Shown in pieces: positions 16,151 to 53,737 of a DNA stretch of 64,000 nucleotides. This stretch comes from Nitrospirota bacterium. GTDB taxonomy: Bacteria; Nitrospirota; Thermodesulfovibrionia; Thermodesulfovibrionales; UBA6898. Location: contig JACRMT010000004.1 in the NCBI GenBank assembly GCA_016214855.1, positions 682,001 through 746,000 on the forward strand, read 5' to 3'. The position numbers were made by a program, and so were the translations under genes. The notes beneath the pieces were generated by a model. The model saw only the letters and a program-made list of their open reading frames with translations. It was not told the origin of the DNA and searched no databases. Each line of letters starts with the position of its first letter. The stretch's first letter is position 1.

Positions 16151-16750
16151 TCAGCCTTCGCCAAGGAGCACAAGAAACTGGCGCACCACATCAGGATCGA
16201 AATGAATCCCGGCAAGATCACGAATATGACTCCGGACCATCTCCTCAGGCCAGGGCTCACGATAGGGCCTCGCCGACAGAAGAGCATCATAAACATCGAC
16301 CACGGCAAATATCCGCGCTGATAATGGGATATTCTCTCCTGAAAGCCTCTGAGGATATCCGGTGCCGTCCCATTTTTCATGATGGCAATAGGGAATATCA
16401 ACAACCGACCGCAGGGACGGCATAAGAAGCTCGTGTGATTGTGTCGGATGCATCCGAATGATATCCCACTCTTCATCGGTTAGGCCGCCCGTCTTCAGAA
16501 GGATCGTCTCCGGGATCAGGAGGGTACCGATGTCGTGGAGCAGCGCTCCGCATCGAATCTCCGACACTGCGGGATCATCGAGCCCCATCTCCCGGCCGAG
16601 CATCGTCACAAGACTTGTCAGGCGGCGGGTATGTCCGTCGTCTTCTCTCGATCGCCTGTCTACCGCCTTTGCGAAAACGCTGAGCGTGATCTCATAAGAA
16701 TCCGTGAAATGATCATAGACCTTCTTCAGTTCATCATAAATTTCTTTCAT
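16151..16750 (-). CDS. HD-GYP domain phosphodiesterase, cytoplasmic
   Basis: A 199-residue protein that is little more than an HD-GYP domain. A short helical lead is followed by the first histidine region, then the metal-binding ALLHDIGTLLIPE, RMHPTQSHELL, and the signature CHHEKWDGTGYP. Such domains hydrolyse cyclic-di-GMP. AAGGAG at 16756-16761 (minus strand) fixes the start MKEIYDELKK; the open frame extends 62 residues upstream with no credible coding. No receiver or membrane part is present, so its control is unknown. It is divergent from another HD-GYP gene. Confidence 0.85.
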   Translation of the reverse strand: MKEIYDELKKVYDHFTDSYEITLSVFAKAVDRRSREDDGHTRRLTSLVTMLGREMGLDDPAVSEIRCGALLHDIGTLLIPETILLKTGGLTDEEWDIIRMHPTQSHELLMPSLRSVVDIPYCHHEKWDGTGYPQRLSGENIPLSARIFAVVDVYDALLSARPYREPWPEEMVRSHIRDLAGIHFDPDVVRQFLVLLGEG

Positions 16751-17034
16751 TAACAGCTCCTTTCGTTTGCGGTGGACAGTTGGCCTCTGCAATGTTCCCA
16801 TCCCATAATACACCGACTTTCGATTTTCCTCAAGAATACTTTTATCGTGGCGAACAGGCATCAGATCGGCCGCAAAACAGATCCTGCTCTCCGGGTCACT
16901 ATGGGTATGCGCTGCGCCGCAGCATCCTTGCGGCATGTATTCTTGACAGATCCGGTAAAAAGTGCAATAGTCTTTTCAAGGGGAAGACTATCGAAATTAT
17001 GAGCAGGATGGCAGCCGGGATATAACGTGAGTCG

Positions 17035-17877
17035 ATGCACAAGATAAACCCACAGACTGTTGTGCTTTCAGAGTATAAAGCTATGTCCCGGCTTTCGCTC
17101 TATATCGTCATTCTCGCCTGGATCGTGCTCGGGATCTATTTATATGTTGTCACTGCTCGCGAAACTTCGACGATCTTTCATTATTTTCTCTCTACGGATC
17201 AGCTCGGCATAAAATTCAGGGCGCTGATACTCCTGGCTCCGCTGATCCTCACGGCGATCAGTTATCTGATCAATGACAGGGCAAGGCTTCTGCTCAAGTC
17301 ATTGTCTGCCGAAAGGGACTTGGGAACGCTCTGTGATGATCTTATTGTGGCGTTTGCAAATGCGATCGATGCCAAGAGCCACTGGACCAATGGTCATTCA
17401 GAACGGGTGACCTCTTATGCCCTTTCGATCGCCAAAGAAATGGGAGTAAGCGAAAGCGACTGCAGGACGCTCAAGATAGCAAGTCTCCTTCATGATATCG
17501 GCAAGATCGGCACGTATGACGTGATCCTGGACAAACCGGGACCTCTCACGAATGAGGAGTGGCAGTTGATCAAGATGCATCCTATTCAGGGCGAAAACAT
17601 CCTGAGACCGATAAAACAGCTTCAGGATGTCATCCCTATAATAAAGGGACATCATGAAAGAGTCGATGGGAAGGGGTATCCCAGCGGCCTGTGCGGAGAT
17701 GAACTCCCCTTGCTTGCAAAGATCCTCTGCCTTGCCGACTCCTATGACGCCATGGTCGCGGACAGACCTTACAAAAAGGGGCTTGACAAGGAACACGCCT
17801 TTTCGGAGATACGCCAAAAAGCAGGCACACAGTTCGATCCGGAGACAGTCAAGGCTTTTTTCGCAGCGATCAGGTAG
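17035..17877 (+). CDS. membrane-anchored HD-GYP domain phosphodiesterase
   Basis: A 280-residue protein with two N-terminal membrane helices (about residues 23-40 and 63-80) flanking a short periplasmic segment of about 20 residues, too small for a folded sensor. The cytoplasmic HD-GYP domain has GHSERVTSYA, SLLHDIGKIGTYD, KMHPIQGENIL and the signature HHERVDGKGYP, so all catalytic residues for cyclic-di-GMP hydrolysis are kept. No clear ribosome site precedes the first ATG; the ATG at 17083 is an alternative. Confidence 0.85.
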   Translation: MHKINPQTVVLSEYKAMSRLSLYIVILAWIVLGIYLYVVTARETSTIFHYFLSTDQLGIKFRALILLAPLILTAISYLINDRARLLLKSLSAERDLGTLCDDLIVAFANAIDAKSHWTNGHSERVTSYALSIAKEMGVSESDCRTLKIASLLHDIGKIGTYDVILDKPGPLTNEEWQLIKMHPIQGENILRPIKQLQDVIPIIKGHHERVDGKGYPSGLCGDELPLLAKILCLADSYDAMVADRPYKKGLDKEHAFSEIRQKAGTQFDPETVKAFFAAIR

Positions 17878-22039: not shown

Positions 22040-23305
22040 TCACTGTATTACCGTCTGGTATCTGGTCCTTGCATCGGCCTGGGCTGTCATACGGATAGAC
22101 TCAAGTTCATCGAAGTGCTTTCCGATAACAGCCACGATCTGACCATTTAATGCTGAACGCACGCTCATGTCGTCGAGCACCCTTAACGTATCAAACCTCT
22201 TCATCCCGCGCCGGTAAGGACGATCCTCGGTCAGAGCGGTAAAGACATCTGCAACAGCCATGACCTGCGAACCAAGAGGCAGGTCCTTTTCTTTCAGATG
22301 AAAGGGATACCCGGAGCCGTCCAGCCTCTCGTGGTGAAATGCCGCCCATGCATTGATCGTCTGCAGGGCCGTGATAGGCTCAAGGATCCTGTAGGTGTAA
22401 AACGTATGATGCCTTACTACATTGAATTCTTTCCTGTTGAGCTGGGAAGGCTTGTCAAGGATCTCAACCGGAACGGCAAGCTTGCCGAGATCGTGCATAT
22501 AGCCTGCTATCCTCATGGCAGTGCATTCCTGCCGGGCAAATCCCAGCTTGCCTGCCAAGAATTCCGCACTGGCTGCCACGCCGCTGGAATGGGTGGCGGT
22601 AAAAGGACTCTTGAAGTCTATGATCCGTGAAAAAAGTTGCGAAAATCCGAGCATGTCCTTCGAGGCAACGCCGATCTGGGCAGAGCGCAGCCTCTGCGAG
22701 AGGATGGTCTGAATCGACGGGGAGGAAAGATCAAGCCAGAAATATTCCCTTGCCGATATTGCCCTGAATACGTCCACCAGTTCAGGACTGAACATCCTTC
22801 CGGCGTTTGACTGGACAGTCCGGCATATCCTGCTGACCTGGCTGAGGATCTCTTTCTTTCTGTTGATCAATACGGCTATCCGGTCAGACAGATGAAGAAT
22901 ATGGCTTGAGAGGGGAACTTCCTGTCCGTTATATTCCCTGCCCGATCCATTGTCCCAGGGAACATGATGGAACCGGACCATGGATGCCACAGCAGAAAGA
23001 GGAGAGAACAGTCTGAGCAGGGCATAACCGCTTTCAGCGTGTTTGTGCGGATTCAGGATCTCAAAGGCCAGGGTATTCCGGCGTTCTGCGAGACTGAAGG
23101 CCCCTATATCGTGCAGGGCTCCGGCCAGCACTATCTCCTTCTGTTGAGCCAAAGGAAGACCCATTTCCGCGGCCATGCTATGCGCGATATAGGCTACCCT
23201 CTTGTGATGGTCAACGACTGATGGATCGATAAAGTCCATAGCATCGGACAGGCAGATCATCAGATCAACCAATTTTATCTTCTTGCCATCCTTCATCATG
23301 ATCAT
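22040..23305 (-). CDS. tandem HD-domain protein, C-terminal HD-GYP active
   Basis: A 421-residue soluble protein with two HD domains. The first (about residues 15-190) keeps GALHDIGAFSL, but its GYP loop is altered to HHVPWDNGSGRE. The second (about 225-400) has THSSGVAAS, GYMHDLGKLAVPVE, RHHTFYTYRIL and a full HHERLDGSGYP signature. The first domain is likely regulatory or structural and the second a cyclic-di-GMP phosphodiesterase. No membrane segment is seen. It is the third HD-GYP gene within 8 kb. Confidence 0.82.
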   Translation of the reverse strand: MIMMKDGKKIKLVDLMICLSDAMDFIDPSVVDHHKRVAYIAHSMAAEMGLPLAQQKEIVLAGALHDIGAFSLAERRNTLAFEILNPHKHAESGYALLRLFSPLSAVASMVRFHHVPWDNGSGREYNGQEVPLSSHILHLSDRIAVLINRKKEILSQVSRICRTVQSNAGRMFSPELVDVFRAISAREYFWLDLSSPSIQTILSQRLRSAQIGVASKDMLGFSQLFSRIIDFKSPFTATHSSGVAASAEFLAGKLGFARQECTAMRIAGYMHDLGKLAVPVEILDKPSQLNRKEFNVVRHHTFYTYRILEPITALQTINAWAAFHHERLDGSGYPFHLKEKDLPLGSQVMAVADVFTALTEDRPYRRGMKRFDTLRVLDDMSVRSALNGQIVAVIGKHFDELESIRMTAQADARTRYQTVIQ

Positions 23306-35800: not shown

Positions 35801-38518
35801 TCAGTCCGGCTTAAGCGGAAGGGTAAATATGAATCGGGAACCTCTGCCCGGGTCACTTTCGACCCAGATGCGTCCTCCGTGGTTTTCTATGATCGTCTTG
35901 CAGATCGCCAGACCCAGACCGGTACCCTGCGGTTTGCCCTTCGATGCGTCCCGAAGCTGATGGAATTTTTCAAATATCCGCTCTCGCTCTTCCGGCACGA
36001 TCCCCGGACCATTGTCAATGACCGCCAGCTTTGCCTCGACATCTGTGGACGATAACTGAAGACGGACGTTCCCTGTATCGGGATCACAGTATTTGATGGC
36101 GTTCGAAAGCAGATTGATAAGCACCTGAACGAGTCTATCCTGATCGCCGGTTATGATGACAGGGCTGCCGGGAACCTCAGAGGAGACCATTATATTTTTG
36201 TTCTGCGCAAGCTGGCTCGTTGCGGCCAGGGCCTCATGTACCACGCTGATGAGGTCCATATTCTCAAGCTCCCACTGATAAGCCCCCGACTCAATCTTGG
36301 TGAAATCAAGCATCTCGTTTACAAGGCGGGTCAGGCGCTCACTCTCTTTAACGACAATCCGCAGCAGCTGCTGCCGCTGCTGCGGATCCATGTCAACGTC
36401 GTCCTGCAGGATTTCAGAGAAGGCCCGGATCGAAGTAAGAGGTGTCCGCAGCTCATGACTTACCGTAGAAACAAAGTCGTCCTTCAAAAGATCAAGTTCC
36501 TTCAGACGCTCATTGGTGCGTTTCAACTCCCGTGTTGCCGACTCGAGTTCCCGCGACTTCTGTTCAAGCCTGCGGCTATACTCGATGACCTGTGACGTCT
36601 CATCGAGTATCTTCATCAACCCCTCTATGCTCAGGGCCTCGCCTTCTATGATCGAAGAGATCATGACGCGGGCAGACGCTGCCCCAACAGTGCGGGCAAG
36701 TTCGCGCTCCGCAAAAGATACAAGACTCTCATTAGCAAGAGTATCGTCCTGCAGTTTCTGGGAGTGCTGGACTGCGTATGTATTAAAAACCATCTCAGCC
36801 CTCCCCGGCCCTATCATGCGGGCCACAAGGCCCTTCAGGTCGCTGACCCTCGTCTTGCCGAGCCAGAGACGCGCACCTTCAGTATCAGAAGCCCTCTTCT
36901 TGTATACATCCACGAACATTGCAGCCTGCAGCTGCTCAAGTGCCTCCTGCCTGCCGAACAGGGATACACCGACCAGGAGACCGATATTCAGCAGCATGCT
37001 CCAGAATACAGCGTGTGTTATAGGATCAAAACCCGAGAGGTTGAACAGGTGATAGGGGCCAAGCATGGGGATGCCGAACAGACCCGGTTCGACAAATGAC
37101 ATGGGCAGCCAGCCAGAGCGGGCGAATGAAGGAAGAAGCAGCGTATAGGTCCAAATGGCAAACCCTCCCGCCAATCCAGCCAGAGCCCCCCGTCTACTCG
37201 CCCCCTTCCAGTATATCCCAAGCAATATGGCCGGCGCGAACTGTGCAGCCGCAGTAAACGAAACAAGACCCATGCTGACCAGGGCATAGGATTCCCCGAT
37301 CAGCCGAAAATACAGGTATCCAAGAAGTAATATGAGCACAATGCTTCCGCGTCTTATGCTGAGAAGTGTCCTGCCCATGTCGTCGCGTCGAAGAAGCTTG
37401 AGCCTCAGGAGAACTGGCATCAGCAGGTCATTACAGAGCATTGTAGAAAGCGCAATGGTCTCCACAATTACCATACCTGTGGCAGCTGACAGCCCGCCGA
37501 TAAATGCGAACAGGGCCAGAGCCTGCTCCCCGCTCCTTAGCGGCAGCGTCAGCACAAACATGTCTGCATCCACTGCACCGGCCTGAAAAAACATGAGACC
37601 TCCCAGAGCTATCGGCAGAACAAAAATATTTATTGCAAGCAGGTACAGCGGAAACAGCCAGGAGGCCGTACGGACATGCTCCTCGTTAACGTTCTCAACG
37701 ACAAGTATCTGAAACTGCCTTGGCAGAAACATGATCGCAGTCATAGCAATGAACGTCAGGGCAAACCATGAAGCATAGCCGCCTGGCATAGAGTCCATGT
37801 CCGTCTGTTTGGTAGTATCCAGCATCAGTGAGGCCTGCTTAAATAGATCCGCCGGCCCGTCGAACAGTACAAACGTAACGAATATGCCCACCGCGGAAAA
37901 GGCCAGCAGTTTCACGATGGATTCGAAGGCAATGGCAGCAACCATGCCCTCGTGCCGTTCGGTAACGTCAATATGCCGCGTTCCGAACAGGATCGAGAAA
38001 ACCGCAAGAATCAGCGCAACGTAGAGGGCCGTATCATGACCGAGGCTCAGCTCACCGGCCTTCTCGGTGCTATAATAAAAAAGTACGTTAAAACTCGTGG
38101 AGATGGCTTTAAGCTGCAGTGCGATATACGGCATGATGCCTACAACTGAAATCACGGTCACGAGACCGCCGATCACAGAACTCTTCCCATAGCGTGACGA
38201 TACGAAATCCGCAATGCTTGTGATATGGTTTATTTTGCTCAGGCGTATTATCTTGCGCAGGACGAGCCACCAGATCGTTGCTGCAAGAGTCGGCCCCAGA
38301 TATATCGGCAGAAAGCCGACTCCGGTAGAAGCCGCGCGGCCCACACTGCCATAGAATGTCCAGCCCGTGCAGTATACTGCAATTGAAAACGTATATATGT
38401 AAGGGTTGCTGATGATGGACCTGCCCGTGTCTGCACGCTTGTCGCCATAATAGGCGACGGCGAACAGGATACCGAGATAACCAAAAGATACAAAGAATAT
38501 TATCCAGTAATTCGGCAT
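35801..38518 (-). CDS. sodium/solute symporter-histidine kinase fusion (CbrA-like)
   Basis: A 905-residue fusion. Residues 1 to about 500 form some 13 membrane helices of the SLC5 symporter family (FYGSVGRAAS, GFLPIYLGPT). Then comes a STAC-type linker (VSDLKGLVARMIGPGRAE), a helical segment with ELARTVGAASARVMI, a coiled coil, and a HisKA helix with His688 in SHELRTPLTS, followed by the ATPase boxes NAIKY, DNGPGIVPEE and GTGLGLAI. It resembles CbrA, in which transport and sensing are joined, but no PAS domain is visible. AAGGAG precedes the ATG chosen, one base after the upstream gene. Confidence 0.9.
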   Translation of the reverse strand: MPNYWIIFFVSFGYLGILFAVAYYGDKRADTGRSIISNPYIYTFSIAVYCTGWTFYGSVGRAASTGVGFLPIYLGPTLAATIWWLVLRKIIRLSKINHITSIADFVSSRYGKSSVIGGLVTVISVVGIMPYIALQLKAISTSFNVLFYYSTEKAGELSLGHDTALYVALILAVFSILFGTRHIDVTERHEGMVAAIAFESIVKLLAFSAVGIFVTFVLFDGPADLFKQASLMLDTTKQTDMDSMPGGYASWFALTFIAMTAIMFLPRQFQILVVENVNEEHVRTASWLFPLYLLAINIFVLPIALGGLMFFQAGAVDADMFVLTLPLRSGEQALALFAFIGGLSAATGMVIVETIALSTMLCNDLLMPVLLRLKLLRRDDMGRTLLSIRRGSIVLILLLGYLYFRLIGESYALVSMGLVSFTAAAQFAPAILLGIYWKGASRRGALAGLAGGFAIWTYTLLLPSFARSGWLPMSFVEPGLFGIPMLGPYHLFNLSGFDPITHAVFWSMLLNIGLLVGVSLFGRQEALEQLQAAMFVDVYKKRASDTEGARLWLGKTRVSDLKGLVARMIGPGRAEMVFNTYAVQHSQKLQDDTLANESLVSFAERELARTVGAASARVMISSIIEGEALSIEGLMKILDETSQVIEYSRRLEQKSRELESATRELKRTNERLKELDLLKDDFVSTVSHELRTPLTSIRAFSEILQDDVDMDPQQRQQLLRIVVKESERLTRLVNEMLDFTKIESGAYQWELENMDLISVVHEALAATSQLAQNKNIMVSSEVPGSPVIITGDQDRLVQVLINLLSNAIKYCDPDTGNVRLQLSSTDVEAKLAVIDNGPGIVPEERERIFEKFHQLRDASKGKPQGTGLGLAICKTIIENHGGRIWVESDPGRGSRFIFTLPLKPD

Positions 38519-38519
38519 G

Positions 38520-38813
38520 TCAGGGCTCCTTGAGATCCTGGCTGTCTGATGGCACCCCAATCCCGGACGAACGGCCCCGAAGAACAAAGCCCGTTATCCC
38601 AATAATAAGGGACCATATTGAAAAGAGATAGAAGTAGAGCACCGGGACACCGCAGACAAAGGCACTTACACTGAAAATTGACAGAAGTGGGAAGTTCAGG
38701 AGTATAAGTCCCCCGATCAGAAGCCCTAACAGACGTTCCACTCTGCGTTCAGGTTCAGGTATTTGACTGCCGTCTCCATGAGTTCCTGATCCCGAATTTT
38801 CCGGTGTCGTCAT
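38520..38813 (-). CDS. small two-helix membrane partner of the symporter
   Basis: A 97-residue protein with a polar N-terminus (PEPERRVERLLG) and two membrane helices (about residues 27-48 and 55-78). This fits the small DUF485/DUF4212-like subunits that are often encoded before sodium/solute symporters. Its ATG overlaps the upstream sensor-exonuclease gene by 4 bases and its stop is one base from the symporter-kinase start, which supports a direct functional link. Confidence 0.7.
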   Translation of the reverse strand: MTTPENSGSGTHGDGSQIPEPERRVERLLGLLIGGLILLNFPLLSIFSVSAFVCGVPVLYFYLFSIWSLIIGITGFVLRGRSSGIGVPSDSQDLKEP

Positions 38814-40876
38814 CGGCGTATAACCTCCATCAATTGAGCCATGGTATTGATCCCGCGTTCCTGAAGCAGGAATAAAAACTTGAGGAATATCTGAGCCGTA
38901 ATGAGAGCATCTCCCTGCGCAGTATGTCTTGCCCTAACCTCTACTCCCAGTCGCCGGGCAACAGCGTCCAGGGAGTGCTCAGGCGTATGGTCGTGCAGAA
39001 AGAGCGACAGCGCAAGGGTATCCAGCACCGGGCCGCGGAAAGAAACACCGGCACGTTTCTCTTTCATCCTGATGAAACGCATATCAAATGCAGTATTATG
39101 CCCTACCAGGACTGCATCACCGGTAAACGCATGAAATGAGCGAAGAACGTCTTCAATGGAGGGTTTATCGATAACCATATCGTCCGTGATTCCATGAAAA
39201 CGCGCAGATGATGGGGGAATGGTCCTCCCTGGGTTCACCAGGCGATCAAAGGTTTCACCGACTACAATGCCCCGGTTGACGATTCTTACCCCGGCAAGGG
39301 AAACGATCTCGTCGCCTTCAAGGGGGGCAAGGCCGGTGGTCTCTGTGTCGAAGACGACAAAGGAAATACGATTTAAGGGAAGGTCCTTCAACCGGCCGGC
39401 CCCTTCAGCGTCCTCATATGGTGAGAAATCAGTATAGACCGGCCGTGCAGGCAGCAGAGGAGCAGGGGATTCCCACTGCCGCGTGGACGACAGTATGGGG
39501 ATGCAAAGCATGGCATAGCCCGGCATACCATGCGGCCTGCTCCAGACTTCGCTGCCCAAGTGCTCAAGCACTTCTGAGACAGTCTGACTGTCAGGGGGCT
39601 CAATCTGAGATGACTTCCATTGCCGGATCAACGCCTCGGGCACTGCCTTGCCTCGCCAGAAAAAATTGAAATAGACGCGCTTGTCGCCCAGAAGAGTTTC
39701 GACTTCGACAGATGCAGCGCACGAGTATTCATGAATCTTCCAGGCGAAGAACTCAAGAAGGTGCAGAAGGGAATGAATCTCCGCCTTTATCCAGAGGGGA
39801 TCGCCGATCATGGTAAGTAGTACCCCTCTTTCCCCGAGCTGCCTGGCCACACAGGCAACGACATCCCCGGTATAAACATCGCTCACCAGATACCGGGGGG
39901 ACTCCATCGCCTCAATCTCGCGGGCAAGAACCTCAAACTGCGCGGTAAGTGTCGCGGTATCACTCACCATGGTGCGCTCAAGCGCGGCACGGCTGCCAGC
40001 ATCAAGGTCCGGCAGCATCTCGATACTGTCAACACTGAGCCTGAGACTTGTTAGCGGCGTCTGTATCCCCCTCATGGCGGCACGCATGAGGTTTTCCCGG
40101 CGCCCCCGTGCATCCGCCTCTCTGCTGACGTCCTCACAGGTAAGCAGAAATGACCAGGACAGGCCATGAACCTCCGGGAGAAGGCGTATGCTGCAACTGA
40201 TGATCGTCCCCATAAGGGTTGAACTTACAAAAGAAATACTGTTTTCAGACTCCGGGTCTGCAGGATTCCGGACTCTCCGCTGCCTCAGAATTGCAAGGGA
40301 ACTCTCGATTGGCGAAGCGGTGCAGAGCTGATAGAGAGAGAGGCCCAGTCCGAGTGCTGAGCTTTCCTGCATTACCCTCCGGGCAGCAAGATTGTAAAAC
40401 ATGATGCGTGCCCGTTCGTCGCAAACGATTATGCCCTCCTTGAGCGATGAAAGGATAGTTTCTAGACGCGTCCTGCTGCTTTCCAGTTCACTCGAACTCG
40501 CGGAAACAGCCTCGGCAATCTCGCGTCTTGACTTCATAAACGCGTCGCCCAGATCACGGACTGCTTCCGGAATATCGCCAAGGAAATGTCGATGTAAGAC
40601 CGTAATCACATACCTTGGATTTACCCCGGTAATGATACGGATCTCCCTGCTGAGCAGCTCCAGTGGTCCAAGCACAAATACATAAAGCGCAAGGAAGAGA
40701 ACGGCAACGAGCAAGGCGGATAAAAAGGCGGCAACCACGAGGGCAAGACGTATCTGTACACGGACATCAGGATTTTCGGCATGCGACAGGAGAATAAGAC
40801 CCGCACCGATAAGCAGCACTGCATAAAAGAACACCGCGGCGAACATCAAATATCGGAACCGGGGATATTTGTTCAA
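38810..40876 (-). CDS. membrane sensor with degenerate kinase helix fused to a DnaQ-like exonuclease
   Basis: A 688-residue protein with two N-terminal membrane helices (about 10-31 and 45-72), a HAMP-like stretch, a PAS domain (about 125-245: LKEGIIVCDERARIMFYN), and a HisKA-like helix where the phospho-acceptor histidine is replaced by Arg269 (MRGIQTPLTSLR). A degraded ATPase-like region follows. The C-terminal third (from about residue 505) is a 3'-5' exonuclease of the DEDDh type: DTETTG at 510, GHNTAFDMRFI and HTAQGDALIT. Architecture is seen; nuclease control by a membrane sensor is inference. Starts 33 bases after the response regulator. Confidence 0.87.
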   Translation of the reverse strand: MNKYPRFRYLMFAAVFFYAVLLIGAGLILLSHAENPDVRVQIRLALVVAAFLSALLVAVLFLALYVFVLGPLELLSREIRIITGVNPRYVITVLHRHFLGDIPEAVRDLGDAFMKSRREIAEAVSASSSELESSRTRLETILSSLKEGIIVCDERARIMFYNLAARRVMQESSALGLGLSLYQLCTASPIESSLAILRQRRVRNPADPESENSISFVSSTLMGTIISCSIRLLPEVHGLSWSFLLTCEDVSREADARGRRENLMRAAMRGIQTPLTSLRLSVDSIEMLPDLDAGSRAALERTMVSDTATLTAQFEVLAREIEAMESPRYLVSDVYTGDVVACVARQLGERGVLLTMIGDPLWIKAEIHSLLHLLEFFAWKIHEYSCAASVEVETLLGDKRVYFNFFWRGKAVPEALIRQWKSSQIEPPDSQTVSEVLEHLGSEVWSRPHGMPGYAMLCIPILSSTRQWESPAPLLPARPVYTDFSPYEDAEGAGRLKDLPLNRISFVVFDTETTGLAPLEGDEIVSLAGVRIVNRGIVVGETFDRLVNPGRTIPPSSARFHGITDDMVIDKPSIEDVLRSFHAFTGDAVLVGHNTAFDMRFIRMKEKRAGVSFRGPVLDTLALSLFLHDHTPEHSLDAVARRLGVEVRARHTAQGDALITAQIFLKFLFLLQERGINTMAQLMEVIRR

Positions 40877-40909: not shown

Positions 40910-41287
40910 CTATTGACCCGGTCTCGATGACAGGATCTCATTAATCCTCATCATTACCTCCCGGGTAGAGAAGGGCTTGGTAACATAGTAATCTGCACCC
41001 AGAGCCAACCCCTTTTCTTTCTCGACCTCTCGGCCCTTTGCGGTAAGCATGATGATGGCAATGTCCTTCAGTGAGGCATCCGCCCGAATGCGCTGACATA
41101 CTTCATACCCGTCCATCTTCGGCATCATGATGTCGAGAACAATAAGATCGGGCCGGAATTCTCTCAAAGCATCAAAGACCTTCTGGCCGTCGTCCACGCT
41201 CTGAACCTGATAGCCTTCCCTCTTCATCAGGAGTTCGAGAGCTAGTACGATATTCGGCTCATCATCCACAATCAGAATGCGGTGCAT
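40910..41287 (-). CDS. stand-alone response regulator receiver
   Basis: A 125-residue CheY-like receiver with all conserved residues: the acidic pair Asp8-Asp9, phospho-acceptor Asp52 in VLDIMMPKMDG, Thr at about residue 82 in MLTAKG, and Lys104 in YVTKPFS. There is no output domain. As first gene of the operon that ends with the symporter-kinase fusion, its probable partner is that kinase; its target may be the exonuclease protein or the divergent CBS-DUF294 protein. Confidence 0.92.
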   Translation of the reverse strand: MHRILIVDDEPNIVLALELLMKREGYQVQSVDDGQKVFDALREFRPDLIVLDIMMPKMDGYEVCQRIRADASLKDIAIIMLTAKGREVEKEKGLALGADYYVTKPFSTREVMMRINEILSSRPGQ

Positions 41288-41324
41288 GCCTTGTTACCAC
41301 CTCACTACGGCTCAGAATGATTTC

Positions 41325-41330
41325 ATTATA
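41325..41330 (-). promoter_or_regulatory. -10 box for the response-regulator operon
   Basis: TATAAT on the minus strand lies 38 bases before the start codon. A weak TGACTG stands at the -35 distance. Confidence 0.4.
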
Positions 41331-41463
41331 CCATAAGCGAGAGACAGCCAGTCAGTTCAGCAGTCGGCAATCGAATAGATAATAGGACAGCCGCTATGTA
41401 TGGTCTGGACATTTTGCATACTGCACTGTACCATGAAAGAAGAAAGGCAGAGGACACGAATAG

Positions 41464-43374
41464 ATGGCAATGCTGAGTAAAGACGCCGCACTATTTTTAA
41501 AAAAACACCCGCCGTTCAGCCTTCTCGACGATCATACGCTCGGCCGGCTGGTGGAGAGCCTCATAATGGAGCTGTATCCTGCCGGCACGCTTATCCTGAA
41601 GCAGGGAGACCAGCAAACCCGCGGCCTTCATATCATCAAAGAGGGAGGCGTAAAAATTCTCGCCAGAGCCGCGTCGGGGCAGGAGCGCGTAATCGACTAC
41701 CGTGATGCTGGGGAGACATTCGGGTTTCTTTCCCTTGATGAAGATGATCGGCTTGACGTATCAGTGCAGGCCGTTGGAGACACAGTCTGCTATGTTGCAG
41801 ACAAGGCCGGCATTATGAAGCTTTTGGATGACCATCCTCTCTTGCGGGAATATCTGATTCCCTCATATTTTCCGAAACGAGAAGAATCACCTGCCGGATC
41901 TTCCGTCTATCAGCATGCCCCTCACCTCGGATCCCAAAGGGTTCTCTTTACTACCCCTGTCAGAGACCTTGCGGGCCGGGAGGTAATCACTGTCCGCGCC
42001 GATACTCCCATCATAGAGGCTGTCAGATTGATGTCGGCGCACCGCATCAGTGCCCTTGTGATTATGGACAAGTCCGACTGGCCGGAGGGGATTATCACTT
42101 CATCTGATCTGCGCGACAGGGTATTAGCCCGACAAAAGGACCAATCCGATCCCGTCAGCGACATCATGAGCAATCCGCTTGTCATGGTAGACGGCGCCGA
42201 TTTCTGCTTTGAAGCACTCCTCAAGATGATGAGCCACAACGTTCACCATCTTCTTGTCATTGATTCAGGGAAACTCACCGGAATCGTCAGCAACCACGAT
42301 TTTCTGGTCCTGCAGGGAATTTCACCGCTCCTGGTCGTCAGAGAGATCGAGAATCAATCGACCATAGAAGGTCTCATCGCTGCGTCGGGAAAAATCAGGG
42401 GGCTCATTTCGCTTCTCCTCCGGGAGGGGGCAGGTGCGGGAAGCATCCTGAGGATCATCACCACGGTAAACGACCGGATTGAACGCAAGATCCTTGACCT
42501 CGCACTCACTACGCTCGGAACACCGCCAGTACCCTTCTGCTGGATCGTTTACGGGAGTGCCGGCAGGAAGGAACAGACATTCAAGACAGATCAGGACAAT
42601 GCAATTGTGTATGCAGACACGGCAGGGGAACTGGAGCAGCTCGCGACAGCGGAGTATTTCGGCCGCTTCGCGGAATTTGTTGTGAACGCATTCTTGCGTT
42701 GCGGTTTTATGCTTTGTCCTGGCGATTTTATGGCTACCACCCCCCAGTGGAGACAGCCCCTCTCCGTATGGAAAAGAAGTTTCAGCGCGTGGATTGATAC
42801 GCCGACGAGCAAGGCGATCCATAATTCAGCCAACCTCTTCGATTTCAGGGGGCTGCACGGAGATCTGAATCTTGCGGTGGAACTCAAAAAGCACCTGATG
42901 CATTCTCTCCGGAATCAGATGATCTTTCTTAAGGCATTAGCAGAACTGACTACAGACTACCGCCCGCCCCTTGGCCTGTTCGGGTCCCTGATATTCGAAA
43001 AGACCGGAGAACATGCGAAACACCTTAATATCAAGGACAAATGCCTTACCCCCTTAACCAATATCGTTCGTCTCTTCAGCTTTGAAAGCAACATCCCGGA
43101 AACCTCTACGCTGGAGAGAATCGCAGTCCTGAAAAATATCCATCCTGTGATGAAGGAGGTAGGTGATGATCTTGAACATGCATTTGAGTTTGTTTCACTG
43201 CTCAGGATACGCCATCAGCTGGATCAATCCGCTATGAACATCGAACCGGACAACTTCATCGACCCCAGGCAGCTGGGATCGCTTGAATTCAGGAACCTCA
43301 AGGGTATCTGCAGTCTGGTCGCCCAGGTCATTAACGACATATCAAGGAAATACGGCACAGGCGCCCGCCTGTAA
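41464..43374 (+). CDS. cNMP-binding/CBS/DUF294 nucleotidyltransferase-like protein
   Basis: A 636-residue soluble protein with four parts in order: a cyclic-nucleotide-binding-like beta-roll (about 15-130, LILKQGDQQTRGLHIIKEG), a CBS pair (about 170-285), a DUF294 nucleotidyltransferase domain with GSAGRKEQTFKTDQDNA starting at about residue 364, and a DUF294 C-terminal helical domain. The G-S-x-G-R-x-E...D-x-D signature is that of GlnD-like nucleotidyltransferases. It lies back to back with the symporter/exonuclease operon; the same set of families is known to be neighbours in pseudomonads. Its substrate is unknown. Confidence 0.9.
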   Translation: MAMLSKDAALFLKKHPPFSLLDDHTLGRLVESLIMELYPAGTLILKQGDQQTRGLHIIKEGGVKILARAASGQERVIDYRDAGETFGFLSLDEDDRLDVSVQAVGDTVCYVADKAGIMKLLDDHPLLREYLIPSYFPKREESPAGSSVYQHAPHLGSQRVLFTTPVRDLAGREVITVRADTPIIEAVRLMSAHRISALVIMDKSDWPEGIITSSDLRDRVLARQKDQSDPVSDIMSNPLVMVDGADFCFEALLKMMSHNVHHLLVIDSGKLTGIVSNHDFLVLQGISPLLVVREIENQSTIEGLIAASGKIRGLISLLLREGAGAGSILRIITTVNDRIERKILDLALTTLGTPPVPFCWIVYGSAGRKEQTFKTDQDNAIVYADTAGELEQLATAEYFGRFAEFVVNAFLRCGFMLCPGDFMATTPQWRQPLSVWKRSFSAWIDTPTSKAIHNSANLFDFRGLHGDLNLAVELKKHLMHSLRNQMIFLKALAELTTDYRPPLGLFGSLIFEKTGEHAKHLNIKDKCLTPLTNIVRLFSFESNIPETSTLERIAVLKNIHPVMKEVGDDLEHAFEFVSLLRIRHQLDQSAMNIEPDNFIDPRQLGSLEFRNLKGICSLVAQVINDISRKYGTGARL

Positions 43375-52138: not shown

Positions 52139-53737
52139 ATGGTACAGATGATCAGGAACTTCTTCATAGCGCTCAGGCAGATAGCAGTCGGCGACAAGAA
52201 GTATTACGCGTGGGTTTCCTTTCTGTCTTTTCTGATCCTCCTCGGTGCAAGCGCCTATATCGGCCAGATCAACAGGGGGCTGATCGTCACAGCCATGAGA
52301 GACCAGGTTTCCTGGGGATTTTATATCTCCAACTTCACATTCCTTGTGGGTGTCGCTGCAGCTGCAGTCCTTCTCGTCATTCCGGCATATCTCTATCACT
52401 TTAAACCTATCAAGGAAATTGTGCTTTTCGGCGAACTTTTGGCGATCTCTGCCATAACCATGTGTATCCTCTTCATCATGGTGGATATGGGGCAGCCACT
52501 CAGGGTTTGGCACATATTACCGGTCATAGGTGCCATGAATTTTCCGGCGTCTCTGCTTGCCTGGGACGTAGTCGTTCTCAACGGTTACCTTGCGATCAAT
52601 GTTACCATCGCCTTTTATGTCCTTTACCGGCTTTCTATCGGCAAGGATTACAAGATGTCCGTAATAGGCCCGCTGATCATTCTCTCGATCCCCTGGGCGG
52701 TCAGTATTCACACCGTTACGGCGTTTCTGTACAACGGTCTGCCCGCCAGGCCTTTCTGGAATGCCTCGATCCTGGCTCCGAGGTTTCTCGCCTCGGCTTT
52801 CTGCTCAGGACCGGCCCTGATGATCATACTCTTCCAGATCATCAGGAAACTTTCAGAAGTGGAGATAGATAACAAAGCGATCCATAAAATAGCAGAACTG
52901 ATCGCCTATGCCATGGGGATCAACCTGTTTCTCCTTGGCGCCGAGATCTTCAAGGAATTCTATTCGGGCAGCATCCATTCAGAGCCGATCAAATACCTGT
53001 ATTTCGGCCTGCATGGACATAACAAGCTTGTTCCCTGGACATGGTTTGCGACTGTCCTGAACATTTCAGCCTTTTTTCTGTTTCTCTTTCCCAAAACCAG
53101 GGAAAACTTCACAACGCTCAACATGGCCTGCGCCTTTGTGATTACAGGTGTCTATATAGAAAAGGGCATGGGCCTCATCATTCCCGGTTTTATTCCCGAC
53201 ACCCTCGGTGAGATATACGAATACACTCCAACCATGCAGGAAATGCTGATCACCATAGGGATCTGGGCATCCGGGGCCCTGCTCTATACCTTCATGCTGA
53301 AGCTGGCCATCCCGGTCTATACAGGCAAACTCCGCTTCTTCTCAAAGGCCCAGATGGTTAATGCACATGACATCATGTCTCGCCGCATGGCAGTCGTTGA
53401 GGAGAACACTCCCTTTGATGATATGGCAAAGTTACTTCTCTCCAAGCATCTTAACGATATAGCAGTAGTAGACAAGGAAGGCAGACTTATCGGCACAGTT
53501 ACCGATACAGACCTCATATCTCTGGAGGCAGGCGAAACCGCGGGGAAAACCGCAGCAGATATCATGAAAGCCCCGGAAGGCGCCATACCGGAAGATATCA
53601 GGATCCAGGAACTCGGCCAAAAGCTTGCATCTCAGCAAGCCAGCCGTCTTTTCGTGATCAATAACACAGGACAGCCTGTGGGCATGGTTTCCGGCAGTGA
53701 CATCCTGAAGACCCTGGAGCATATAAGAAAAGAGTAA
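52139..53737 (+). CDS. NrfD-type membrane subunit fused to a CBS domain pair
   Basis: A 532-residue fusion. Residues 1 to about 390 form ten membrane helices of the NrfD/HmcC/DsrP type (DMGQPLRVWHILP, GINLFLLGAEIFKEFY). After TGKLRFFSK comes a CBS pair (about 410-530): AHDIMSRRMAVVEENTPFDD, HLNDIAVVDKEGRLIGTVTD, then a second unit ending RLFVINNTGQPVGMVSGSD. CBS pairs bind adenine nucleotides and regulate attached domains, so quinone turnover here may answer to the cell's energy state. The reading frame is unbroken across the join. Confidence 0.88.
   Translation: MVQMIRNFFIALRQIAVGDKKYYAWVSFLSFLILLGASAYIGQINRGLIVTAMRDQVSWGFYISNFTFLVGVAAAAVLLVIPAYLYHFKPIKEIVLFGELLAISAITMCILFIMVDMGQPLRVWHILPVIGAMNFPASLLAWDVVVLNGYLAINVTIAFYVLYRLSIGKDYKMSVIGPLIILSIPWAVSIHTVTAFLYNGLPARPFWNASILAPRFLASAFCSGPALMIILFQIIRKLSEVEIDNKAIHKIAELIAYAMGINLFLLGAEIFKEFYSGSIHSEPIKYLYFGLHGHNKLVPWTWFATVLNISAFFLFLFPKTRENFTTLNMACAFVITGVYIEKGMGLIIPGFIPDTLGEIYEYTPTMQEMLITIGIWASGALLYTFMLKLAIPVYTGKLRFFSKAQMVNAHDIMSRRMAVVEENTPFDDMAKLLLSKHLNDIAVVDKEGRLIGTVTDTDLISLEAGETAGKTAADIMKAPEGAIPEDIRIQELGQKLASQQASRLFVINNTGQPVGMVSGSDILKTLEHIRKE

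Follow-up and report, generated by a model that had tools for sequence, protein, structure and literature searches.

Gene organization of the locus

The window analysed here, a stretch of 64,000 nt from a Nitrospirota genome, carries on its minus strand a gene for a protein of 688 residues in which a membrane-bound, kinase-like part is joined to an exonuclease domain. The frame opens with a TTG at 40876 and closes with a stop at 38810. The genes on this strand overlap or abut and therefore form one operon, in which a receiver-only response regulator is followed by the fusion protein, a small membrane protein and an SLC5 kinase; the same order is found across phyla. The features of the locus, in window coordinates, are as follows:

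40910..41287, minus strand: receiver-only response regulator (125 aa), operon gene 1; acidic pocket, Asp52, Thr82 and Lys104 intact
38810..40876, minus strand: fusion gene, membrane pseudokinase-DEDDh exonuclease (688 aa), operon gene 2
40625..40867, minus strand: two N-terminal membrane helices (residues about 4-84) joined by a short loop, from AlphaFold secondary structure and hydrophobic sequence
40130..40468, minus strand: PAS domain (residues 137-249), from a weak Pfam PAS match, strands in the model and fold matches to PAS kinases
39905..40126, minus strand: pseudo-DHp helical hairpin (residues 251-324), with Arg269 at the phospho-histidine column
39488..39883, minus strand: degenerate ATPase (CA) domain (residues 332-463); N-box Asn and G2 box absent, invariant Trp407 in place of the G1 Asp
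38813..39376, minus strand: DEDDh exonuclease domain (residues 501-688), with Asp510, Glu512, Asp598, His651 and Asp656
38520..38813, minus strand: small membrane protein (97 aa), whose start codon shares the sequence ATGA with the stop codon of the exonuclease gene
35801..38518, minus strand: SLC5-type transporter joined to a histidine kinase that is intact; the start codon (ATG, 38518) follows the small gene immediately
41464..43374, plus strand: cNMP-binding/CBS/DUF294 putative nucleotidyltransferase, divergent neighbour
41288..41463, no strand: divergent spacer separating the operon from the DUF294 gene, likely to hold the promoters of both, from position only

The original prediction had read the 688-residue chain as two membrane helices, a PAS domain, a HisKA-like helix with Arg269 in place of the histidine and a full DEDDh exonuclease, a reading that is borne out by the frame, Pfam, the motifs and an AlphaFold model. 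Pfam places RNase_T (PF00929) at residues 507-664 (E = 2.8e-36) and a weak PAS match at residues 137-186, and the motifs DTETTG (510-515), HNTAFD (593-598) and HTAQGD (651-656) are all present in the exonuclease. Pfam returned no HisKA or HATPase match in the protein; in fact, its kinase part went unrecognised in the Pfam, NCBIfam and PADLOC scans. The AlphaFold model had a mean pLDDT of 57 with 7 sequences and of 84 with 47 homologs. In the model with 47 homologs two long N-terminal helices and the PAS domain come first; residues 251-324 then form the DHp hairpin, 332-463 a Bergerat-like domain and 501-688 the exonuclease, with a low-confidence linker at residues 473-489. The loop between the two helices comprises only a few residues, and the protein has no extracytoplasmic sensor domain. 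In the PDB, Foldseek matched the N-terminal part to PAS-histidine kinases (WalK, 4i5s, ThkA) and the C-terminal part to the exonucleases of PolC, DnaQ and DinG. A frameshift or assembly artefact as the origin of the gene is ruled out by full-length open homologs in many genomes.

Distribution of the fusion family

We collected 72 members of the fusion family, which is real and conserved and occurs in Nitrospirota, Acidobacteriota and Pseudomonadota. Of the 295 Nitrospirota genomes 4 carry a member, and the 199 genomes of Acidobacteriota yielded one full match and one partial match. In the Pseudomonadota 44 of 398 genomes carry a member, about a tenth of the sampled species, as do 20 of 369 genomes in the class of a gammaproteobacterial MAG from this phylum (in both searches the taxon labels follow the titles of the MAGs at the search centres). 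Plasmid records of Paracoccus, Cupriavidus and rhizobia add further members; where these records are annotated at all, the product is mostly given as "exonuclease domain-containing protein", "3'-5' exonuclease" or similar.

A histidine-kinase fold without catalytic residues

A profile of residues 245-475 aligned with the kinase part of the neighbouring SLC5 kinase family over 207 columns (hhalign probability 99.2%, E = 1.9e-19), while control profiles of the transporter and of DUF294 did not exceed 0.2%. Together with the model and the fold matches to PAS kinases, this assigns the region to the histidine-kinase fold, with a DHp hairpin and then a Bergerat-type domain. The ATPase half alone reached 96.3% in the profile-profile comparison with the SLC5 kinases; the residual HATPase domain that the original prediction had proposed to look for is thus present.

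None of the 72 members carries a histidine in the acceptor column, a point that the original prediction had proposed to check in homologs. The column is occupied by Glu (40 members), Asp (8), Arg (6), Pro (5) and others, with a gap in 2. The ATP-binding boxes are lost across the family as well: there is no N-box Asn, an invariant Trp takes the place of the G1 Asp, and G2 is missing. The 44 aligned SLC5 kinases, by comparison, show essentially no variation in the His, in Glu at H+1 and Thr at H+4, or in the three ATP-binding boxes (N, G1 and G2), which are intact. Scaffold positions are retained in the fusion family, with Arg at H+3 in 94% and Leu at H+16 in 89% of the members, although the protein of the window has Gln272 at H+3. 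The reading as an ordinary kinase is ruled out by the missing histidine among the 72 homologs and, judged from the aligned columns, the kinase is dead throughout the family, having lost both its acceptor and its ATP boxes.

The exonuclease domain

The five catalytic residues listed above are invariant in the 47-row alignment, and the DEDDh residues are retained in 68-69 of the 72 members; the domain is a predicted 3'-5' exonuclease. Mutated DEDDh boxes in relatives, which the original prediction had named as evidence against its reading, do occur, but in three of the 72 members only (L080, L081 and L140): in this small divergent branch the exonuclease region is still recognisable and the catalytic residues are all lost. 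A further exception, L028, is a broken or low-quality copy with ambiguous bases. By sequence and structure matches the domain is closest to PolC/DnaQ-type domains (VIA: Z 25.2 to PolC, 9qpc, with 33% identity, and 21.8 to DnaQ), with which it shares the fold and all five catalytic residues. What differs is its partner, a membrane pseudokinase in place of a polymerase or helicase. The tree unites the fused exonucleases in a single clade (100/99) that excludes the stand-alone enzymes used for comparison. A role in defence is not indicated, as the models that match are generic DEDDh ones only.

Conserved neighbours and joint losses

The link to a symporter that had been noted earlier turned out stronger than claimed, since the adjacent gene combines a transporter with an intact histidine kinase in one protein, with both HisKA and HATPase_c recognised by Pfam. 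Its SLC5 part aligns over residues 8-467 with a solved structure, 10ed_A (E = 4.4e-76), whose entry names a histidine kinase and which is presumably the one reported for CbrA (PMC13022988); the match stops at residue 467 (residue 452 of the chain), short of the STAC region. For the small membrane protein we found no meaningful sequence match in the PDB, and an identity as DUF4212 is unsupported by Pfam. Among the 72 members an SLC5 kinase lies in the neighbourhood of 46 and a DUF294 gene in that of 50. Near the operon in two of the loci, ORFs that by eye resemble acetyl-CoA hydrolase/transferase (L026, 10795-12693; L028, 10092-11993) would fit acetate metabolism. Elsewhere in the window (52139-53737), CBS domains are joined to an NrfD-like membrane subunit, which is an uncommon pairing.

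Of all its neighbours the fusion gene is most tightly linked to the receiver gene, which lies directly upstream in about 60 of the 72 members (58 found by script, together with L111, where the frame exceeded the length cut, and L080, recovered by profile; four more members are cut by contig ends). It persists beside the fusion gene in loci with no SLC5 kinase nearby (L104, L106, L119, L121). The receiver consensus contains a family-specific stretch of 31 residues.

One clade has lost both the receiver gene and the DHp hairpin. About 70 DHp residues are deleted in L138 and L139, where DUF294 is the immediate upstream neighbour without an intervening receiver gene; L125 has a scrambled DHp sequence and likewise lacks the receiver. 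The best receiver match anywhere in these three genomes scores 118 bits, as against 207-235 bits where the receiver is kept. The exonuclease residues are intact in all three. According to the tree this co-loss is a single event in one clade and is hence suggestive rather than statistical proof. Two genomes, G574 and G1179, have kept the DHp with no recognisable cognate receiver. In the branch with the dead exonuclease (L080, L081, L140) the upstream receiver is also without its acidic pocket; three degenerate modules are retained together there.

Comparison with known systems

A close parallel to the dead kinase core is DivL of Caulobacter, which has no acceptor His and whose ordinary docking face serves to bind DivK~P; Arg553, three residues past the replaced His, is needed for this (PMC4211667). 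Like DivL, the fusion protein combines PAS with a kinase core without acceptor His and has a lone receiver as its candidate partner, and Arg553 corresponds to the H+3 position, where the docking Arg is kept in most of the fusion family, though not in the protein of the window. DivL differs in acting on the kinase CckA and in having no enzymatic output domain, whereas the output of the fusion protein would be a nuclease. Moreover, the partnership of the fusion protein with its receiver, unlike that of DivL with DivK, is drawn from adjacency and one co-loss event. By this analogy a DivL-like receptor pseudokinase is the best-supported reading of the fusion protein.

The gene at 38518-35801 encodes the same kind of transporter-kinase as the SLC5/STAC kinases CbrA, CrbS/MxtR and RpuS. 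The local kinase has no fused receiver, and the local response regulator consists of a receiver only, in contrast to the LuxR-type regulators CrbR and RpuR and the sigma-54 activator CbrB. The resemblance of the small membrane protein to CbrX, a protein that binds CbrA at its SLC5 domain (PMC13022988), is one of size, two helices and position only.

A further parallel is found in Pseudomonas putida, where PP_0354 and PP_0353, a CBS protein and an exonuclease, form one operon that is a target of MxtR/ErdR; deletion of PP_0353 impairs growth on pyruvate, and homologs of the pair adjoin actP/yjcH in P. aeruginosa (PMC9927547). As in the locus described here, an RNase_T-type enzyme and a CBS protein are tied to an SLC5 kinase system, and PP_0354 looks like the DUF294 type of this locus. 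PP_0353 differs in being a transcriptional target of the kinase system and, judged from the stand-alone enzymes beside gammaproteobacterial DUF294 genes, is probably without membrane helices or a pseudokinase. Those stand-alone enzymes fall outside the fused clade. Unfused DEDDh enzymes adjoin cNMP-CBS-DUF294 genes in 20 of 30 gammaproteobacterial loci and in all 15 of the best stand-alone Nitrospirota matches. The genome analysed here has a second such pair outside the window (G000:C4:194000-208000, L171), in which the enzyme is stand-alone: this cluster encodes acetyl-CoA synthetase, a sodium:solute symporter, DUF4212, a DEDDh enzyme of 222 residues, cNMP-CBS-DUF294, a sigma-54 (NtrC-type) response regulator, an antiporter and a histidine kinase. 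By analogy, these systems point to carboxylate uptake as the process that the operon of the window may serve.

A possible route from transporter-kinase to nuclease

In what we consider the best explanation, for which we see about an even chance, the transporter-kinase signals through the lone receiver to the pseudokinase, which switches a membrane-held exonuclease. We infer a chain in which a small solute, probably acetate, pyruvate or another short-chain carboxylate, would be sensed by the SLC5 transporter-kinase, which would phosphorylate the receiver-only product of the first gene in the operon. Once phosphorylated, the receiver would dock on the pseudo-DHp of the fusion protein in the way that DivK~P binds DivL. 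Having lost its own chemistry, the pseudokinase would act as a relay: through the coiled dimer the docking event, and with it any signal from PAS, would reach the DEDDh domain at the C-terminus, and the 3'-5' exonuclease at the membrane would thereby be turned up or down. The fusion protein would thus be the output end of a transporter-linked two-component system with no need for transcription. That a kinase shell without its acceptor could serve as a signal-receiving scaffold for a nuclease had been proposed from the single chain; the proposal gains support from the family, in which the histidine is never found, the DEDDh residues are kept in nearly all members and the receiver is encoded upstream. 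The adjacency of the receiver, its co-loss with the DHp and the joint decay of exonuclease and receiver are suggestive of this chain of signalling. Also in its favour are the retained kinase fold with Arg at H+3 in most members, the receiver gene that persists in loci with no SLC5 kinase nearby, the overlapping or abutting genes of the operon, the intact kinase partner and the 10ed_A match of the SLC5 part; the Gln at H+3 in the protein of the window, the single origin of the co-loss and the two genomes with a DHp but no recognisable cognate receiver count against it. Conserved neighbours could, on the other hand, reflect a common regulator with no physical contact between the proteins, and the PAS domain and membrane helices could be a real input.

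This last point leads to a different reading, in which the helices and PAS sense a signal of their own (redox state, a lipid or a cytosolic ligand), the pseudokinase is a dimer conduit only and the receiver acts elsewhere, on the SLC5 kinase or a distant regulator. Both the PAS domain and the transmembrane helices are conserved, G574 and G1179 do without a receiver, and the clade of L138, L139 and L125 keeps an intact exonuclease after the loss of receiver and DHp. We nevertheless regard this reading as unlikely, because the receiver gene is the most tightly linked neighbour and loss of the receiver went along with decay of the DHp in one clade. The nuclease might also be an ordinary housekeeping enzyme of repair or RNA turnover that is tethered to a degenerate kinase, with the operon meaning shared expression only. 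Its fold and residues are indeed of the proofreading type, but the recurrence of the same operon in at least three phyla and the separation of the fused clade from the stand-alone exonucleases compared make this improbable.

Two further proposals concern the substrate. Oligoribonuclease is a DEDDh enzyme, and the window contains three HD-domain (HD-GYP-like) genes (16151-16936, 17035-17877 and 22040-23305), in keeping with the original suggestion that the exonuclease degrades linear dinucleotides (pGpG, pApA) in the service of cyclic dinucleotide signalling. The suggestion is not supported: the nearest of these genes lie 16-25 kb from the fusion gene, HD-GYP genes occur near only 4 of the 72 homologs and were rejected as a conserved context, and for the exonuclease domain, whose best matches are of the PolC/DnaQ type, the PDB sequence matches up to E = 0.01 include no oligoribonuclease. 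We therefore hold a role in dinucleotide turnover to be highly improbable. The other proposal pairs a writer with an eraser: the DUF294 protein would add a nucleotide or a short tail to an RNA or protein target in carboxylate uptake, the DEDDh enzyme would remove it, and the pseudokinase would place the eraser under the control of the transporter-kinase. DUF294 and DEDDh genes adjoin in separate clades, both fused and stand-alone, as counted above, and the P. putida pair is an operon under MxtR/ErdR (PMC9927547). The activity of DUF294 is itself a prediction, however, and we find this pairing distinctly unlikely as an account of the locus. It can be combined with control of the exonuclease by the transporter-kinase through the receiver. 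In one such combination the transporter-kinase would hand its phosphate to the lone receiver, the dead kinase fused to the DEDDh enzyme would read that receiver, and the fusion together with DUF294 would place and remove a nucleotidyl mark on an RNA or a protein and so adjust carboxylate uptake without transcription; our expectation of this is rather doubtful.

Significance

All component families of the fusion protein are known, and its architecture is genuine, conserved and apparently undescribed: searches of the literature on DUF4212 or DUF294 with an exonuclease and on exonuclease-kinase fusions turned up no account of it. The outputs of two-component systems are usually DNA-binding regulators or enzymes of second-messenger metabolism. 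A nuclease governed by a pseudokinase would, if true, be a new kind of two-component output, and the family suggests that a sensor may control a nuclease directly, instead of or besides switching genes on. It would also provide a concrete frame for the unexplained effect of the pp_0353 deletion on the growth of P. putida on pyruvate.
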